39,475 nucleotides of DNA from Myxococcaceae bacterium. GTDB taxonomy: Bacteria; Myxococcota; Myxococcia; Myxococcales; Myxococcaceae. Shown here in pieces: positions 1 through 7,024 of this stretch. The notes under the pieces were generated by a model that searched no databases, was not told where the DNA came from, and saw only the letters and a list, made by a program, of their open reading frames with translations. The stretch lies in NCBI GenBank assembly GCA_022842905.1, contig JALHOS010000017.1, positions 1 to 39,475 on the forward strand, written 5' to 3'. Positions within the stretch are counted from its first letter, which is position 1; each line of letters opens with the position of its first letter. Position numbers and translations under genes: made by a program.

Positions 1-2319
1 GCGTCGGCGCCGGCGCCCGACGAGCAGCAGCCCCAGCGCCAGCACCGGGCCCGCCGACGAGCACCCGCCGCCGCAGGGGTCCGGCTTCGCGCCTCCCTGC
101 CCACCGGCGGCGCCGCCCGTGCCTCCGGTACGCGGCGCGGTTCCTCCTCCGCCGGTTCCTCCCGTCATGTCGCCGCCGCCCGCGCCGCCAAACCCGGTGT
201 CCACGCAGTAGTGGGTGTTGCCCAAGAAGAGCTGGCACGTCTCTCCCGACGCACACGCGGTCGGCGCGGTCGGATCACAGGTGATGCGGCACTTCCCGTT
301 GTTGCACGCACCGCCGAACGTGCAGGCGCGCGGCTCGCCCACCGCGTCACAGGCCTGGCCAATGCGCTGCGTCTTCTGGCTGTCACACGCGCACACGCCG
401 TCGCCGCTCGGCTCCTGCTGAATGCAGGTGAGGCACGCGCTGGACGTGAAGACGTTGCAGGCTCGATAGCACTTCGTGTTGTGGCACTTGAGCAGGCCGC
501 CGCACTGCCCGTTCGCGCACGACACGCACGCGTGCCGTCCAGGCTCTCCGGGAATGCAGGAAGTGCCGTCGCAGAAGAAGCCTTCGGCGCACTCGCCGAA
601 CTCGCCGAGCGTGGAGCACTTCGCCCGGCAGTACCGTGTGCCCCCCGTGCCGACGCAGGCCATGTTGTTCGGGCAGTAGCGGTTCACCTCGCCGAGCATG
701 GGATCCATGATCAGGCCGCAGCGCTGGTTGAGCCCCGACAGCTCGTACGGACAGGCGCAGATTCCGTCCGTCGGCTCCGTCCCCCACGGAATGCAGGCGG
801 GACACGCGCCGGGGTTGCGCGGGTTGCAGGCCGTTCGACACTGGCCCTGCACGCAGGTCCCAGGCGCGCGACACGGCACCGACGTGCTGCAGAACTCGCA
901 GGTGCCGGCGCCACCAACCGGCACGCACGCTCGGTCCACGCCGCCGACCAGCGGAGCACAGGTCATGGGCCCCGCAGTCTGCGAGCACACCGTCGCCGTA
1001 CACGTCGGGCCGCACTGCCCCGTCGAGCTGCCTCCGCTGCAGCACGCCCGGCAGTACGCGGCGTTCAACCCAGGGCCGATGCCGCCGTCTCCTTCCGCGA
1101 CGCAGACGGAGCAGCCGGGGCAGATCTGGTGCAGCTCGCAGCGGTCGTTCAGCACGAGCGTCGGCACGCACATGCCCGCCTGGCACTTGAAGCCGGGCGC
1201 ACATTCCACGTTCTGTTGGCACTGCGGCCTGATCAGCTGACAGCTCCCGAAGTCCGGCGTGCAGAAGCGGCCCTGCCCGGTCAGCTCACACTTGTACCCA
1301 GAGCCACACTGGGCGTTGGTCGTGCAGCCGACGGTGCACAGGTGCGTGCCGTCGGACCGCCGGAGGCACACCCCCGACAGACACGCGGCGCTCGACGAGC
1401 AGAACTTGCAGAGGTCCGGCGAGCCAAGGATCGGCAGGCACGCAAAGCTGTTCGTCGACGCCTGGCACGTGTAGCCCGGCGGGCAGTTGGTCGCGGTCGC
1501 GGACAGGCAGTCCTGGGTGCAGATCGCCTCGCTGCTCCCGGGGCGAGCTTCACACACGCGGCCCTGCGTACAGCTGTTCATGCCCACACCGCTGAGCATG
1601 CACGGATCTCCTTGGCCGCCAGGCTCCCCGGGGTACAGCCCGCAGATCGCCCCTTCGTCCGAGCTGGTCAGCCGCTGGCGGACCTCACCCCACGAGAACG
1701 TCGGCGCCATGACCGACGTCCCGCTGCTGTGCTGAAGCCCTGCGAAGTGCCCCACCTCGTGGAGGATCAGCGACTCGAGATCGTACGAGCCCTGGTTCCC
1801 CGTCGTGTCCACGTAGACCGCTCCGTTGAACTCGATGTCGCCGTCGACGATCGAGCCCAGGCCTCCGTCCTGCAGCGTCGTGTGTGTCATGCCCAGCACG
1901 CCCGCGCCGTGGCGCCAGTCCGACTGCTTCATGACCATGACGCTGTTTCTTCCGTCGGTGCCGCTCATGGCGTTGAAGCCGTCGGGGAACGAGAAGAGCC
2001 CGGCGTCGGCGACGTCGAACTTCGTGCCGCAGGTGATCTGCCCCGTCGTCCACTTGCCGAACGCGCGCCGCGCCGTCTCGATGAAGAGGGCGTGCGATAC
2101 CGAGTTGCTCGGCGAGAGGAGCGTCTGCCCGCCGTCGTTGCTGATGCTCTGCGCGATGCGGAACGTCGGCACGCAGCGGCCGGCCACGCAGCGCTCGCTG
2201 GGGTGGCAGGGTGACGGGTTGCAGAGGGCCAGGGCCCACCGCGCCGCCGTCGCCTCGTGCGCCCAGAGGCCCACGAGCATGACCGCCGTGGCCAGCGGAA
2301 GGAATCGCCCGGGTCGCAT
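1..2319 (-). CDS. Cys-rich metzincin (matrixin-like) protease with MYXO-CTERM tail, 3' end beyond the window
   Basis: The frame is open from an ATG at 2319 to base 1 (773 codons) with no stop, so the gene is cut by the left edge. An N-terminal signal segment (residues 1-25) is followed by a protease domain with the zinc motif HEVGHFAGLQH (His187, Glu188, His191, His197) and a Met-turn at Met204 (SVMAP), which is the metzincin signature of family M10. From about residue 225 the protein is very rich in paired Cys, then has a Gly/Thr-rich linker and ends in CGGGCSS, a Leu-rich hydrophobic segment and an Arg cluster, the MYXO-CTERM type of surface-sorting signal. The stop codon should lie just outside the window. 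It is the third gene of a minus-strand operon and starts 6 bases after the stop of its paralogue, with which it shares phrases such as CQASTN and YCRxCC. Substrate and cleavage specificity are unknown; the metalloprotease call is firm, the extracellular role is inferred. Confidence 0.85.
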   Translation of the reverse strand, partial: MRPGRFLPLATAVMLVGLWAHEATAARWALALCNPSPCHPSERCVAGRCVPTFRIAQSISNDGGQTLLSPSNSVSHALFIETARRAFGKWTTGQITCGTKFDVADAGLFSFPDGFNAMSGTDGRNSVMVMKQSDWRHGAGVLGMTHTTLQDGGLGSIVDGDIEFNGAVYVDTTGNQGSYDLESLILHEVGHFAGLQHSSGTSVMAPTFSWGEVRQRLTSSDEGAICGLYPGEPGGQGDPCMLSGVGMNSCTQGRVCEARPGSSEAICTQDCLSATATNCPPGYTCQASTNSFACLPILGSPDLCKFCSSSAACLSGVCLRRSDGTHLCTVGCTTNAQCGSGYKCELTGQGRFCTPDFGSCQLIRPQCQQNVECAPGFKCQAGMCVPTLVLNDRCELHQICPGCSVCVAEGDGGIGPGLNAAYCRACCSGGSSTGQCGPTCTATVCSQTAGPMTCAPLVGGVDRACVPVGGAGTCEFCSTSVPCRAPGTCVQGQCRTACNPRNPGACPACIPWGTEPTDGICACPYELSGLNQRCGLIMDPMLGEVNRYCPNNMACVGTGGTRYCRAKCSTLGEFGECAEGFFCDGTSCIPGEPGRHACVSCANGQCGGLLKCHNTKCYRACNVFTSSACLTCIQQEPSGDGVCACDSQKTQRIGQACDAVGEPRACTFGGACNNGKCRITCDPTAPTACASGETCQLFLGNTHYCVDTGFGGAGGGDMTGGTGGGGTAPRTGGTGGAAGGQGGAKPDPCGGGCSSAGPVLALGLLLVGRRRRR

Positions 2320-2325
2320 CGTGCG

Positions 2326-4749
2326 TCAGCTCCGCGCCCGTCGACGTCGCAGGCTCATCGCCAGGAGCGCGAACACGCCCAACGGGCCCCCCGCGCTGCA
2401 GTTGCAGTCCGGTGGTGGCACCGTGCCGCCACCGCCGGTGCGCACCACACACTGTCGCGACGACGCGTCACAGCGCAGGCCGCTCGCGCAGGGCCCACAC
2501 ACGCTGCTGCTGCCCCCTCCGGTGCCGCCAGTTCCGCCCGTCGAACCGCCTTCGTTCCCCGCTCCTCCACTTCCGCCCGCGCCCGTGGCGTCGAGGCAGT
2601 AGTGCTGATCCTGGTAGCGCGTACACGCCTGGTTCCCCGTGCACGGCGTCGGGTTGCCTGGATCGCAGGAGCTGCGGCACGTCGACCGGAAGCACGCCGC
2701 CCCAGGCTGACACCCGCGCACCGGCGCCGAAGCACAGGCCTGGCCGACCGCCACGCGCTCATCAGGGCAGGTGCACACGCCGTTGTTGGCGGCGTCGATC
2801 GCCAGGCAGCTGGTGCAGTTGCCCGGCTGTGTCGTCACGCACGGCTGGTAGCAGCGGTTCTGGTGGCAGCGCAGGCCCGGCGCGCACGTGCCGTTGTTGC
2901 AGGCCATGCACTGGCCGGTGTCCGGCGGCACGCAGACGAACTGGCCGCCGACGCCGGTGCACGTCTGGCCGGTGGGGCAGGAAGCGGGCTGGTTGCGATC
3001 GCAGCGCTGGCGGCAGCGGGGCTGCGGAGAACCGACGCAGGCCAGGTCGTTCTGGCACCACAGCGGCTCACCGCTCGCCATGGGGCCACAGGCCTCTCCG
3101 ACCCGCACCACCTTCTCGGGACACGCGCAGTAGAAGTTGCCCGACGTCATCTCCGCGCAGGCGCCGCACTGCCCCGGGTTGCTCGGGTTGCAGGTTTCCA
3201 GGCAGCGCCCGTTGATGCAGCGGCCCACGGCGCAGGAGTTCGCGTCCATGGTGCTGCAGGTCTGGCACAGGTTCGCGCCGCTCTGGCGCACGCACACGGA
3301 CGCGGTGCTGTTCGTGATGGTCGCGCAGCGCTCCGCCGGCGGTCCAGTGGGACAGGTGCGCGCCATGCACCCGTTGCACAAGCGGTCGGCGCCCCCCGCG
3401 CCCGCCGTGCAGCACTGGCGGCAGTACGCGATGCCCGACACCTCGTCCTCGAGAATGCACTCCGAGCAGGCGTTGCAGAGTTGGTGCACCTCGCAGCGCG
3501 AGCCGACGGTCTTCACCGGCGTGCAGGTGCCGCCGACGCAGTCGTAGCCTGGCGCGCAGTTGCCGGCAGACGTGCACTGGCCCGTGCAGCGATTGCCCGC
3601 GGGAATGCAGTAGCCGCCGGTACAGCTGTAGCCGGCGCCGCACTGGCCGTCGGTGGTGCAGTTCATGGAACACCACGAGTAGCCCGACGTGTCGTCGTAC
3701 AGGCACAGCCCTGTGCTGCAGCCCGAGCCGGTGGTGCAGAAGGCGCACAGGTCCACCGTGCCGACCTGCGGCAGACAGGCGAACATGTTCGTGGACGCCT
3801 GGCAGGTGAAGCCGGCGGGGCAGCCTTGGGTGCCAGCGACGTAGCAGTCGCGGGTGCAGATCGGCGTGTTGGTGCCTGGCGCGGCTTCGCAGACCAGGCC
3901 CTGGGCGCAGTTGGTGTTGCCCATGGCGTTGACGGTGCAGCGGTCGCCCTGGGCGCCGCCACCGCCCTGGCCCGGAGGCACGGCGTAGATCGTACAGATG
4001 TCGGCGACGTCCAGCGTCTGGAGCGTGCGCACCACGCCGCCGAGGTTCACGTTGGGGTTCATGCTCGCCAGGCCTTGGAAGGCGTCGGTGTGATCGACGC
4101 CAGCGAAGTGCCCGGCTTCGTGGAGAATGACGCTCTCGTAGTCGTAGGACTGCGCGTCGCCGTTCTCGGCCCAGTTGATGTTGTTGTTGAACTCCGTGTC
4201 CGCGTCGAAGATGTGCTTGTTGTTCAGCGTGTACGTCGCCGTCGTCAGCGCCAGCGTCGAGGTGCTGTGGCGCCAGTTCGTGCCCGTCAGCCAGATCCCA
4301 CGGTTGGCCACGTCGGTCGCGTTGATCGCGTTGTAGCCCTGCGGCGTCGTGAAGCAGCCCGCGTTCGAACTCGGGCACGCGTTGATCGACATCCACCGGG
4401 TGCCATCCGAAGCGCCGTTCGTCGCCTGAATGCACAGCTGCGAAGTCACTTGTGAGTAGGTCCACTTGCCCCACAGCTCGACGGTCTTGGCCAGGACGGT
4501 GCTGTACGAGATCGCCGACAGGCCGGCCCGCGTGCGAATGGTGGTCGTCCCGGCATTGTCGACGCTGGTCGCCCAGAGGTACTTGGGCACGCAGCGGTTG
4601 GTCGTCTGATCACAGGTCTCGCTGTTGAGGCACTGCTGCGTGGGACAGCCGGCCGTCAGCGGCCACTTGGTGCCGTTGACCCACGACGCGTCCGCCGACG
4701 CAGCCACGAAGAAGGCTGCGTAGCTGCAGAGCAGGGCGCCGCGTTTCAT
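2326..4749 (-). CDS. Cys-rich metzincin (matrixin-like) protease with MYXO-CTERM-like tail
   Basis: This 807-residue protein starts with a signal peptide (residues 1-22, ending near ASADA). The catalytic domain has HEAGHFAGVDH (His210, Glu211, His214, His220) and a Met-turn in ASMNPN, as in M10 matrixins. From about residue 265 onward come many Cys-rich modules with CxxC and CxxxC spacing that look disulfide-rich, then a Gly/Ser/Thr-rich linker. The end has Cys, a short hydrophobic stretch (GPLGVFALLAM) and RRRRARS, a MYXO-CTERM-type signal for retention at the cell surface. Its ATG overlaps the stop of the upstream small gene by 4 bases (ATGA), so the two are probably translationally coupled. 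The following gene encodes a clear paralogue, indicating tandem duplication. The predicted location is outside the cytoplasm or on the surface. The Cys-rich part could bind substrate or cell-wall material, but that is not shown by the sequence. Confidence 0.88.
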   Translation of the reverse strand: MKRGALLCSYAAFFVAASADASWVNGTKWPLTAGCPTQQCLNSETCDQTTNRCVPKYLWATSVDNAGTTTIRTRAGLSAISYSTVLAKTVELWGKWTYSQVTSQLCIQATNGASDGTRWMSINACPSSNAGCFTTPQGYNAINATDVANRGIWLTGTNWRHSTSTLALTTATYTLNNKHIFDADTEFNNNINWAENGDAQSYDYESVILHEAGHFAGVDHTDAFQGLASMNPNVNLGGVVRTLQTLDVADICTIYAVPPGQGGGGAQGDRCTVNAMGNTNCAQGLVCEAAPGTNTPICTRDCYVAGTQGCPAGFTCQASTNMFACLPQVGTVDLCAFCTTGSGCSTGLCLYDDTSGYSWCSMNCTTDGQCGAGYSCTGGYCIPAGNRCTGQCTSAGNCAPGYDCVGGTCTPVKTVGSRCEVHQLCNACSECILEDEVSGIAYCRQCCTAGAGGADRLCNGCMARTCPTGPPAERCATITNSTASVCVRQSGANLCQTCSTMDANSCAVGRCINGRCLETCNPSNPGQCGACAEMTSGNFYCACPEKVVRVGEACGPMASGEPLWCQNDLACVGSPQPRCRQRCDRNQPASCPTGQTCTGVGGQFVCVPPDTGQCMACNNGTCAPGLRCHQNRCYQPCVTTQPGNCTSCLAIDAANNGVCTCPDERVAVGQACASAPVRGCQPGAACFRSTCRSSCDPGNPTPCTGNQACTRYQDQHYCLDATGAGGSGGAGNEGGSTGGTGGTGGGSSSVCGPCASGLRCDASSRQCVVRTGGGGTVPPPDCNCSAGGPLGVFALLAMSLRRRRARS

Positions 4750-5306
4750 CGACGCGCTCCGACGGCGGCGCGCACGCGGGTGAGGAACTTCTCGGCGGGC
4801 CCGAGGTTCTCGACGGCGTCGATCGGCTCCGGGCTCTTCGAGCCGCGCTCCAGCTGGGTCAGGCCTCGCATGTCGCGCAGCGCAGTCAGCCGGCCCAAGT
4901 GCGGCTTGAGCGCGACCTTCCCCGCGGACAGGGTGTGAATGCCGAAGCTGCGCGAGTCATCCGGTGGGCGAAAGAGGAACAGCACGACGTCTTCGCCGAC
5001 CTCGAAGCGCGGCGCCCCGGCAACCAGCTGCCCGATGTCGCCCACCTCACCGCCGGGCGAGCGCACGAGAATGATCATGGGCGCGGTGCCTTTGAGCGCC
5101 TCTTCGACCTTCACTTCGGCGTACGTCCAGATCGACCGGTGCGCTTCGTCCCACTGCGCTTCGGTGCGCAGCACGCGGCCGCGGATGACGACCTCCGAAG
5201 CCTGCGTCATCTGCTCGATCGACTCGCGGGCGATCACCGTGGCGTGGGCGAGCGGGCCGAGCAGCAGCGCCAGCGCGGCGGTGCCGACCAAGAACGTCGT
5301 GCGCAT
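4746..5306 (-). CDS. Small exported protein coupled to the metzincin genes, function unknown
   Basis: This 186-residue protein has a typical signal peptide (MRT..., hydrophobic core ALALLLG, cleavage after AHA near residue 22). The mature part begins with an acidic helix-like stretch (ESIEQMTQASEVVIRGRV) and then looks like mixed beta structure (WTYAEVKVEEALKG, VVLFLFRPP). There is no Cys in the mature part, no catalytic motif I recognise and no membrane anchor. A strong ribosome site (GGAAGGA) lies about 10 bases before the ATG. It is the first gene of the three-gene minus-strand operon and its stop overlaps the start of the 807-residue protease. The tight coupling suggests that it works with the proteases, for example as an inhibitor, chaperone or targeting partner; this is inference from position only. 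Confidence 0.8.
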   Translation of the reverse strand: MRTTFLVGTAALALLLGPLAHATVIARESIEQMTQASEVVIRGRVLRTEAQWDEAHRSIWTYAEVKVEEALKGTAPMIILVRSPGGEVGDIGQLVAGAPRFEVGEDVVLFLFRPPDDSRSFGIHTLSAGKVALKPHLGRLTALRDMRGLTQLERGSKSPEPIDAVENLGPAEKFLTRVRAAVGARR

Positions 5307-5340: not shown

Positions 5341-5415
5341 GTCCGGCCTGAACGAATCTTCCGCTAATGTATCGGAAACTGAGAGTGGGTTGGTGCTTTG
5401 GCGGAAGGAGCGCAC

Positions 5416-5814
5416 ATGCGCGGGCGGGCAGTCTTTTTCGTGGCGCACGCTGGGTACGAAGCCGCGTGGCAAAGCATGTCGCTGGGGCTGACGGCGGCGG
5501 CCATGGGTGACGACGTCGTCTTCGTGTTCGCCTTCGAAGCGCTCAAGTCGCTCGCGCGGGGCAGCTTCGGCAAGGCGCTGAACGACCGCGAAACGAAGGA
5601 AGTCACCCGCGCCGAAGGGTTGGGCGCGCCGCAGCCCGCGCGCATGCTCGAAGACGCCCGTTCGCTCGGCGCCAGGGCGATCGCCTGCGACACCACCGTG
5701 AAGCTGTGCGGCCTGCTCGCGTCCGACCTGACGGAGCGCGCGGTGCTCGACGACGTGATGGGCCTGCCGCAGATCTGGAAGCTGACCGAGGGCGCTCGGG
5801 TGCTCAACTTCTGA
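5416..5814 (+). CDS. DsrE/DsrF-like small protein
   Basis: The ATG at 5416 is preceded by an excellent ribosome site (GGAAGGAG, 5 bases away), so I prefer it to the TTG 18 bases upstream. The 132-residue protein has an alternating alpha/beta pattern, opening with beta strand RAVFFVAHAG and a helix (LGLTAAAMGDDVVFVFAF), then a strand with two Cys (ACDTTVKLCGL, Cys91 and Cys98). This layout resembles the DsrE/DsrF/TusD-like fold, whose members carry a conserved Cys in the same place for sulfur relay or peroxiredoxin-type functions. It has no signal peptide and should be cytoplasmic. It is transcribed divergently from the protease operon and converges on the VWA gene. No sulfur-metabolism genes lie next to it, so its physiological role is open. 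Confidence 0.65.
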   Translation: MRGRAVFFVAHAGYEAAWQSMSLGLTAAAMGDDVVFVFAFEALKSLARGSFGKALNDRETKEVTRAEGLGAPQPARMLEDARSLGARAIACDTTVKLCGLLASDLTERAVLDDVMGLPQIWKLTEGARVLNF

Positions 5815-5851: not shown

Positions 5852-7024
5852 TCAGAGCTTCTGCAGGATCCGGATCTGGATCTTGACCGGGTTGCGCGTG
5901 TCCGCCGTGTTGATGTTCTGGCAGAGCCGGCCCTGCGCCACGACGGTCGCCGGCGTCATGCCCTGCGGCGGGGCGTAGGACCAGGTGTCGGCGCCGGTCG
6001 TCACCGATTCGCCGTTGACGATCACCGAGAGGAAGCGCGGGTCCGACGGCTCCACCGTGAGCGGGAACTTGCAGGGGTCCGCGTCGCCGATGCGGCGGGA
6101 AATGTCGTCGAGCGCTGCGGTGAGCTCCTGGCCGTTGGCAGCGCGGTAGAACTTGGGCGTTCCGGTGCGCGCGAAGCCGCCGGCCTCGGCCATGAGGTTG
6201 AGCGTGTCGGCCGCGTCGCCCGTCGCCGTGTCCGCGCCGAAGCCGACGACCACGGTCCGAATGTTCTTCGCGCGCAGCGCCTGAATCTTCTCCGCGGTGC
6301 CGATCGCGTCGAGGCAGCCGTGGCTGCACGGCTGAAACGCCGCCGAGCCCGCGTTCTGGCAAGCGGACAAGGGACCCAAGGTGCACCGGCACGCGGGGTT
6401 GGCGGCGGAGCAGGTGTTGTTCATGTTCGCGTCGTTGCAGTTGGGCAGACCGTCGGTCAGCAGCAACACCAGGTCCTCTCGGAAGTCGTTGGCGTCGTTG
6501 AGGCCAGGCACGTTGCCGACGAACGCGAGGGAGTTGCCTGTGGGCGTACCGCCGTTCATCACCGCCGAAGAGATCTTGCCCGAGATCGCCATGGCCTTCT
6601 GGCGCATCACGTTCACGTCGTCGGTGTTGGAGGCCTCGGGCAGCGACTCGTCGACCGTGTCGGCCGCGAAGCACCCGCCGTTCGAATGCGGGAAGAACGT
6701 GAGCCCCATGCGAGCGACGGCCGAGGAGTTCGCCAGGAAGTTCGCCATCGCCGACTTCATCTCGGTCTCGCGCGTCGGGCAGGACGGCGCGCAGGGGTTG
6801 CCCGGCCCGCAGCCCGCCGGCGTGCAGCGCGGGTCGCCGGGGTTGATCGGGCTCTTCATCGACCCGGACCGGTCCACCAGGAGCATGAGGTTCGGCTTCG
6901 GCTTGGTCGCGACCACGTCCTTCGCCTGCGACGTCTGGGCGATGGCCAGCGGCACCACCTTTTCGAAGTCGTACACCTGGCAGCCAAAGGCCGCCGTCGC
7001 CAGCACGATCACCAGTGAACGCAT
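5852..7024 (-). CDS. VWA-domain lipoprotein
   Basis: The 390-residue product begins with a short hydrophobic leader ending in AAFGC (Cys15), a likely but atypical lipobox because -3 is Ala rather than Leu. The von Willebrand factor A domain starts near residue 45: the MIDAS motif is LVDRSGSMK (Asp51, Ser53, Ser55), followed by GGTPTG and LLLTDGLPNC, which supply the remaining metal-ion ligands. Several Cys clusters lie inside the domain (for example around CAPSCPTRE and CRCTLGPLSACQ), suggesting disulfides outside the cytoplasm. A C-terminal region of about 90 residues after the VWA domain has beta character and ends at the bare C-terminus QIRILQKL. VWA lipoproteins are common in Myxococcota, where some act in adhesion or gliding, but no such role can be assigned here. 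It is monocistronic and convergent with the DsrE-like gene. Confidence 0.85.
   Translation of the reverse strand: MRSLVIVLATAAFGCQVYDFEKVVPLAIAQTSQAKDVVATKPKPNLMLLVDRSGSMKSPINPGDPRCTPAGCGPGNPCAPSCPTRETEMKSAMANFLANSSAVARMGLTFFPHSNGGCFAADTVDESLPEASNTDDVNVMRQKAMAISGKISSAVMNGGTPTGNSLAFVGNVPGLNDANDFREDLVLLLTDGLPNCNDANMNNTCSAANPACRCTLGPLSACQNAGSAAFQPCSHGCLDAIGTAEKIQALRAKNIRTVVVGFGADTATGDAADTLNLMAEAGGFARTGTPKFYRAANGQELTAALDDISRRIGDADPCKFPLTVEPSDPRFLSVIVNGESVTTGADTWSYAPPQGMTPATVVAQGRLCQNINTADTRNPVKIQIRILQKL

Follow-up and report, generated by a model that had tools for sequence, protein, structure and literature searches.

A protein of predicted TIMP-like fold encoded beside MMP-type metalloproteases in Myxococcota and its probable role as their inhibitor

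What is the role of a small secreted protein that is encoded directly in front of two metalloproteases of the matrix metalloproteinase (MMP) type? The question is raised by contig JALHOS010000017.1 from the draft genome of a soil myxobacterium (7.85 Mb in 667 contigs), analyzed here over its entire length of 39,475 bp (the window). At its left end a run of three open reading frames (ORFs) on the minus strand, to which all window coordinates refer unless noted, encodes in order P3 (P0003), P0002 and P0001; the P3 stop and the P0002 start overlap as ATGA, and 6 bases separate P0002 from P0001. An initial annotation of positions 1-4749 had described the two proteases, and the P3 gene (4746..5306, 186 amino acids) sits just beyond that span. 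This secreted protein, with a predicted fold shared by tissue inhibitors of metalloproteinases (TIMPs), NTR domains and agrin NtA, is the informative part of the locus. We propose that P3 is probably a cognate TIMP- or potempin-like inhibitor that keeps a surface MMP latent; the predicted fold and the gene linkage were computed, and from them we infer binding and inhibition.

P3 begins with a predicted signal peptide (residues 1-22, ...LAHA^TV, 5241..5306; cleavage site judged by eye), in which Ala22 is nearly invariant and is followed mostly by Thr or Ser; there is no Cys at this site. P0003 matches no family above cut-off in Pfam or NCBIfam, and 19 relatives of P3 gave weak or isolated matches only: one hit the lipoprotein model NF038029 (E 3.7e-4), which we attribute to its signal peptide, and two weakly matched Pfam NtA (PF03146, best E 0.088), which P0003 itself did not. 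The AlphaFold model of mature P3 (164 residues, 4749..5240), made with 48 relatives from named genomes, has a mean predicted local distance difference test score (pLDDT) of 95.9 and a predicted TM-score (pTM) of 0.90. Foldseek ranks four agrin NtA chains highest (E 5.5e-5 to 1.4e-4); TIMP-1 and TIMP-2 come next (E from 1.1e-3). VIA-align also places agrin NtA first (3i70, Z 11.6, the best single fold match), with the N-terminal inhibitory domain (N-TIMP) of TIMP-3 close behind (3cki_B, Z 11.5, 2.4 Å, 116 residues aligned, model 1..164 on TIMP 1..121), then N-TIMP-1 (Z 11.2 for 3ma2_C, and 10.3) and TIMP-2 (Z 10.1); the rows for TIMP-1, TIMP-2 and TIMP-3 span Z 8.1-11.5. In the TIMP alignments among the matches listed, model residue 1 lies on the first residue of the TIMP. 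The strands (E) and helix (H) of the model run E2-4, H8-14, E17-31 and E36-50, presumably the order expected of N-TIMP. P3 is thus predicted to have a TIMP/NTR fold.

Conservation, computed over 151 distinct P3s, is concentrated at few positions. Thr39 (150/150) and Gly63, Gly64 and Gly75 (each 151/151) are invariant, and mature residue 1 is Thr or Ser in 130 of 147 sequences and Thr, Ser, Ala or Gly in 145 of 147, followed mostly by Val or Thr. Going by strand order only, the Gly63-Gly64 loop may lie at the position of the TIMP wedge.

The agrin match allows another reading, in which P3 is a protein of NTR type with a role in adhesion or matrix binding, comparable to agrin NtA on laminin, that shares the operon by chance. 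Both the top fold match and the two weak Pfam NtA hits fit it, but the ten P3-M10 fusions and the pairing fidelity described below speak for P3 acting on the protease, and we regard this reading as extremely unlikely.

The two downstream proteins are metzincins of family M10. P0002 (2326..4749, 807 amino acids) consists of a catalytic domain, a Cys-rich region and a MYXO-CTERM-type tail, and P0001 (1..2319, at least 773 amino acids from 773 codons) is open at the contig end. Both pass Pfam Peptidase_M10 (PF00413, cut-off 24 bits), P0001 with 36.5 and P0002 with 28.2 bits, and they align end to end with 35% identity (E 5e-118). The zinc sites are HEAGHFAGVDH in P0002 (4090..4122) and HEVGHFAGLQH in P0001 (1729..1761). 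In an alignment of P0001, P0002 and 18 long relatives, the zinc ligands with the catalytic Glu (H-E-G-H-G-H) and the Met of the Met-turn are invariant in all 20 proteins. The initial annotation had called the two genes adjacent HExxHxxGxxH proteases and tandem paralogues, and both descriptions hold; the loss of zinc ligands that it had raised as a counter-sign is not seen.

P0002 is the one window protease that was modeled. AlphaFold, given the mature protein (764 residues, 29 sequences), returned a mean pLDDT of 80.6 and a pTM of 0.41; within model residues 1-240, 17 of 24 ten-residue blocks reach a pLDDT of at least 85 and the lowest block is at 69. The closest solved relatives are karilysin (VIA-align Z 15.7, 3.0 Å, 158 aligned, model 3..239 on 37..201) and human MMPs (Z 14-15), and the top Foldseek row is karilysin taken from 8b2q, in which potempin A is bound to it (E 8.4e-5). 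The catalytic domain, at about residues 23-259 (3973..4683), follows the predicted signal peptide directly: structural matches start at model residues 1-6, on MMP residues that we take to be the start of the catalytic domain. Since the fold match begins right behind the signal peptide, there is no space for an MMP-type prodomain, and P0002 is predicted to have an MMP catalytic fold that is prodomain-less.

Is the association of P3 with such proteases particular to this contig? Among the first 21 metzincin loci inspected, 19 have a P3-like gene directly beside the metzincin; the other two lie on contigs of the same genome, a pseudoprotease on C101 and a Cys-rich fragment on C243. Linkage was then counted twice, from the proteases and from P3, on genome sets that partly overlap. 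From the protease side, the best 80 of 166 relatives, taken as 79 loci on contigs of named genomes (Myxococcaceae and Archangium metagenome-assembled genomes, Sorangium, Minicystis, Polyangium and others), include 81 distinct M10 proteins, and P3 lies directly upstream of 58 of them. From the P3 side, P3 is present in all 96 genomes of the home family and in 178 of the 195 Myxococcota genomes searched (84/90 genera). M10 genes were counted as beside P3 if the M10 domain starts on the same strand within 1.5 kb (home family) or 1.6 kb (outside it) downstream. In 60 home-family regions, chosen to cover genera and mostly new to the analysis, all 62 P3 hits are linked to M10, 53 beside it and 9 in the same ORF, and two M10s follow P3 in 38 of the 53 loci with a separate M10. 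Outside the home family, where the sample comprises 31 of the 32 regions among the matches listed, which leave off at weaker scores (G038:C104 had already been counted as L088), 27 of the 32 P3 hits in these regions are beside M10, 1 is fused to it with M10 first, and 4 are without it. Both P3-side samples together give 90 of 94 hits linked to M10 (80 beside, 10 in the same reading frame). The genome of the window has three P3 loci, each immediately before M10 genes, and 5 of its 8 M10 hits above cut-off are in them. As this 7.85-Mb genome has just 9 M10 hits, the linkage is far beyond chance. Its recurrence across the phylum suggests that these bacteria have an MMP/TIMP-like set of protease and inhibitor.

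The fused reading frames bear on what P3 does. P3 comes first in L170, L172, L174, L189, L212 and L214, and M10 comes first in L222, L167 (12149-14845), L204 (8378-9694) and L265; in the nine home-family fusions the order is P3-M10-tail in six and M10-tail-P3 in three, and the P3 matches in L167 and L204 are partial (28-29 bits). The main rival to inhibition is that P3 serves as a trans-acting prodomain or a folding or secretion chaperone for M10 and does not inhibit the mature enzyme. The order of P3 then protease with an ATGA overlap, the N-terminal place of P3 in 6 of 10 fusions (that of a prodomain) and the absence of a prodomain in the P0002 model would all fit such a role, as would the retention of P3 beside two proteins without the first zinc His (L263 and L267). 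On the other hand, P3 follows the protease in 4 of 10 fusions, the closest folds for which a function towards proteases is known, the TIMPs, are inhibitors, and karilysin, the nearest bacterial relative of the protease, has an inhibitor encoded upstream. We consider a purely chaperoning role unlikely, and note that chaperoning and inhibition are not mutually exclusive.

The descent of the two partners is also tied. For 50 P3-M10 pairs from 20 genomes that each have at least two, the P3 and M10 distance matrices correlate with a Mantel r of 0.868, compared with 0.156 +/- 0.066 after partner swaps within genomes, and none of 2,000 swaps reached as high. By these sequence distances, each P3 has traveled with its own protease paralogue as a stable unit. 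Because a TIMP-like predicted fold coincides with a position, fusions and a descent that tie P3 to prodomain-less MMP-type proteases, P3 is most simply an inhibitor or a trans-acting prodomain.

A number of results weigh against inhibition. Linkage by itself would produce the pair fidelity, which therefore does not demonstrate contact. Directly upstream of 23 of the 81 M10 proteins no P3 was detected; these comprise second or first members of tandems, one contig end, L109 (with P3 further upstream) and real absences, and in the genome of the window 3 of the 8 M10 hits lack P3 directly upstream. Conversely, the P3 genes of L250, L257, L262 and L264 have no M10 hit in the fetched region. In the partners of L263 and L267 the first zinc His is gone, which an inhibitor alone does not explain and which also fits a structural role. 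Domains of NTR fold can also be simple interaction modules, and rows for complement C3/C4/C5 and PCOLCE reach Z of about 8 to 9.7 (9.7 for C5 and 9.6 for the PCOLCE NTR domain). At the sequence level, a P3 profile found no TIMP among PDB sequences, hhalign of P3 against TIMP-2 and TIMP-3 gave a non-significant probability of 0.6 on a scale of 100, and 4 of 100 column-shuffled TIMP decoys outscored the real TIMP; P3 residues 14-25 fall in register on TIMP 14-25, but no better than shuffled decoys do. Neither were TIMPs among the Pfam families matched by the 19 P3 members, and NCBIfam likewise gave nothing significant. TIMPs are characterized by a Cys1-X-Cys3 N-terminus and conserved disulfides (PMC9409782, excerpt). 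P3 has neither Cys1-X-Cys3 nor the TIMP disulfide frame, and Cys is absent altogether from 104 of the 151 aligned P3 regions. As this frame is missing, P3 cannot have exactly the zinc-binding chemistry of Cys1 in TIMPs. Since sequence and profile searches gave nothing significant we do not claim homology: P3 is TIMP-like, not a TIMP.

The initial annotation had described the C-termini of the proteases as MYXO-CTERM tails. These are defined by a Cys motif, a hydrophobic helix and an Arg cluster (PMC11980579, excerpt). All 20 aligned proteins carry a tail that satisfies a simple rule of Cys, hydrophobic stretch and Arg cluster, which 1-21% of composition-matched shuffled tails also satisfy. The P0002 tail (2329..2409, ...CNCSAGGPLGVFALLAMSLRRRRARS), scanned alone, gives 16.1 bits with TIGR03382 (cut-off 15.85) and 13.9 bits with TIGR03901 (cut-off 20). 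The P0001 tail (1..81, ...PCGGGCSSAGPVLALGLLLVGRRRRR), open at the contig end, matches neither model and has weak matches (E 0.11 and 0.26) to two families with members that carry a tail of this kind at the end. In whole-protein scans no MYXO-CTERM model was matched by P0001 or P0002, and among the 20 aligned proteins TIGR03901 and TIGR03382 were each matched by 2; a TIGR03901 search of the genome found 4 places, none on the window contig. Hence the architecture that the initial annotation reported is present, and a curated model is passed by the isolated P0002 tail only, and barely. The window being the whole contig, the 3' end of P0001 is absent from it, and among the 40 matches listed for the first 150 bases in the genome, the only full match is the window itself, the others being short, and no contig that overlaps this end is seen.

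By a crude rule, surface-anchor-like tails are found on 192 of 206 partner-type M10 proteins. This bears on a reading that overlaps with ours, in which the protease is a weapon against other cells and P3 confers immunity or self-protection, the inhibition being the same and its purpose another. It has a precedent in an MMP-like effector of a type VI secretion system, the immunity protein of which carries a signal peptide and resembles potempin A (PMC13340143, excerpt). The anchor-like tails speak against a weapon, as does the presence of P3 in every home-family genome, unlike typical, variable immunity genes, and we rate this reading as quite unlikely.

If P3 is an inhibitor, it would stand in for the missing prodomain and hold the enzyme latent, keeping the cell's own envelope safe; in most fusions (6/10) its position is that of a prodomain. 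Meanwhile the protease would receive its lipid, be cleaved by myxosortase and reach the outer surface through type II secretion, turning active there when P3 is removed by displacement or degradation. This sorting route, taken from the model in PMC11980579 (excerpt), comprises Sec export, lipidation, MrtX cleavage and type II secretion and may apply to the window proteases by analogy. The wedge residues and the release at the surface are to be read as suggestions. More broadly, and only tentatively, since we hold it to be somewhat short of an even chance, the Myxococcota may have an MMP-TIMP system of their own, in which a near-universal, disulfide-free TIMP-fold protein inserts the free N-terminus of its mature chain (Thr/Ser1) and the invariant Gly-Gly loop into the zinc cleft of prodomain-less surface MMPs and blocks them, in trans or, in the fusions, in cis like a prodomain.

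Were this true, P3 would either be distantly related to animal TIMPs or have converged strikingly with them on one fold for the same target family, and the origin of the NTR/TIMP fold would become testable; the origin of TIMPs has been placed within eumetazoans (PMC10755359, excerpt). It would also provide a disulfide-free scaffold for metalloprotease inhibition, fused to M10 in some lineages, and explain how social predators could carry prodomain-less surface proteases unharmed. A function is hereby proposed for a family found in 178 of 195 Myxococcota genomes, of which P0003 is unnamed in Pfam and NCBIfam. In the titles and abstract openings of the open-access literature searched no bacterial TIMP is described, and neither a TIMP-fold partner of M10, nor its phylum-wide spread, nor the fusions were found there.

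The history of the two proteases differs from the recent duplication that the initial annotation had assumed from their tandem arrangement. P0001 and P0002 are sisters in the tree with moderate support (84/85), their terminal branches are 0.97 and 1.68 changes per column long, and genome G024 holds an independent tandem pair (100/100). The tree does not bear out a recent event and points to an old, lineage-specific duplication. The two proteases may differ in substrates and may have a predatory or developmental role, as the initial annotation proposed.

Some relatives depart from the window proteases in single features. Locus L051 (7201-8718, contig C101 of the same genome) encodes a 505-amino-acid relative of P0001 with a MYXO-CTERM-like tail that has lost HExxH (VLITRAGYFFGAQPS) and is a pseudoprotease; no P3 hit was found in the region fetched for it. 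In the P3 partners of L185, L186, L195 and L248 the third zinc ligand is Asp or Glu (HExxHxxGxxD or E), so that a third ligand is possibly kept. The gene after P3 in L250 encodes a probably secreted protein of 344 amino acids.

Upstream of the run in the window lies a homologue of cglB, the gene of a gliding-motility lipoprotein (5852-7024, minus strand; NF033757, 369.6 bits, cut-off 200), and between it and P3 an ORF of 138 amino acids on the plus strand (5398-5814), DsrE-like by eye. As this opposite-strand ORF intervenes, cglB and P3 are unlikely to form one operon or transcript. The neighborhood could nevertheless mark a gliding-motility locus in which the metzincins at the surface clip the adhesin CglB or set it free, and of the 29 long-type loci on named contigs 16 do hold a CglB homologue, while several others are short contigs. 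However, the link is seen with the long Cys-rich subtype only: in the 60 home-family regions fetched by P3, mostly of compact subtypes, cglB occurs once, in L176, itself long-type. Together with the intervening ORF this speaks against a common operon, and we find a role in CglB processing very unlikely.

Other neighbors were noted. One gene away from a P3-M10-M10 locus on contig C2 of the same genome is a gene for a CPBP (Rce1-like, PF02517) membrane protease (L057, 10309-11106), one of three CPBP-type genes in the genome. In L110, L119, L129, L134 and L135, in which no P3 was found, an ORF of 111-112 amino acids, frataxin-like by eye, directly precedes or overlaps the M10 start; four of these five loci are in Polyangium records.

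How does the locus compare with known systems? As for the proteases, tandem MYXO-CTERM metalloproteases are an already-named NCBI family, and the proteases alone are of a known kind. NCBIfam NF041905, the myxosortase-dependent metalloprotease MXAN_2677/MXAN_2678 family (cut-off 250 bits), resembles the window pair in that it comprises M10 proteases with tails of MYXO-CTERM type and is named after a gene pair. It is matched at E up to 1 by 18 of the 20 aligned proteins, the two window proteins being the exceptions. In the genome search the tandem pair on contig C2 scores 348 and 325 bits, whereas P0001 (60 bits) and P0002 (46.6 bits), which carry a long Cys-rich region, remain below the cut-off. 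The family name makes no mention of P3, although from the pattern across the home family a P3 gene would be expected next to MXAN_2677/MXAN_2678 in M. xanthus DK1622, and no paper on MXAN_2676 to MXAN_2679 was found in the open-access literature searched.

Of known protein folds, agrin NtA is the best single match to P3, but it belongs to an animal extracellular matrix protein, and its Pfam model is matched weakly at best and not by P0003. The animal TIMP/MMP pair resembles P3/M10 more fully: the predicted fold of P3 matches that of the inhibitor domain (Z 8-11.5), the two being aligned from mature residue 1, and the targets on both sides are M10 proteases with a common fold. N-TIMP inhibitors, which we take to be MEROPS family I35, differ from P3 in that P3 has no detectable sequence similarity to them, no Cys1-X-Cys3 and mostly no Cys, and in that its gene stands directly before, or is fused to, that of its protease; inhibition by P3 is the part that we infer.

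Bacterial MMPs are known mainly through karilysin, and PotA, the potempin bound to it in 8b2q, is an OB-type barrel. Potempin A and karilysin of Tannerella forsythia resemble P3 and P0002 in that a small secreted protein is encoded directly before a bacterial protease, and the catalytic domain of P0002 is closest to karilysin. Genes of the KLIKK proteases are directly preceded by genes of small lipoproteins, the products of which inhibit the protease encoded downstream (PMC7296668, excerpt). This gene order is found for 80 of 94 P3 hits, which have a separate M10 downstream, and 10 more are in the same ORF. According to the same excerpt potempins are lipoproteins (of the outer membrane), whereas the predicted cleavage site of P0003 lacks a Cys. 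Karilysin is a KLIKK protease and is tied to the type IX secretion system (PMC13340143, excerpt), whereas the window proteases have MYXO-CTERM-type tails. Potempin chains are not among the best 50 Foldseek rows for P3, nor among the VIA-align rows listed for it. What is new here is a bacterial MMP with an inhibitor-like protein encoded upstream that, in the rows seen, is nearer in predicted fold to animal TIMP and NtA.

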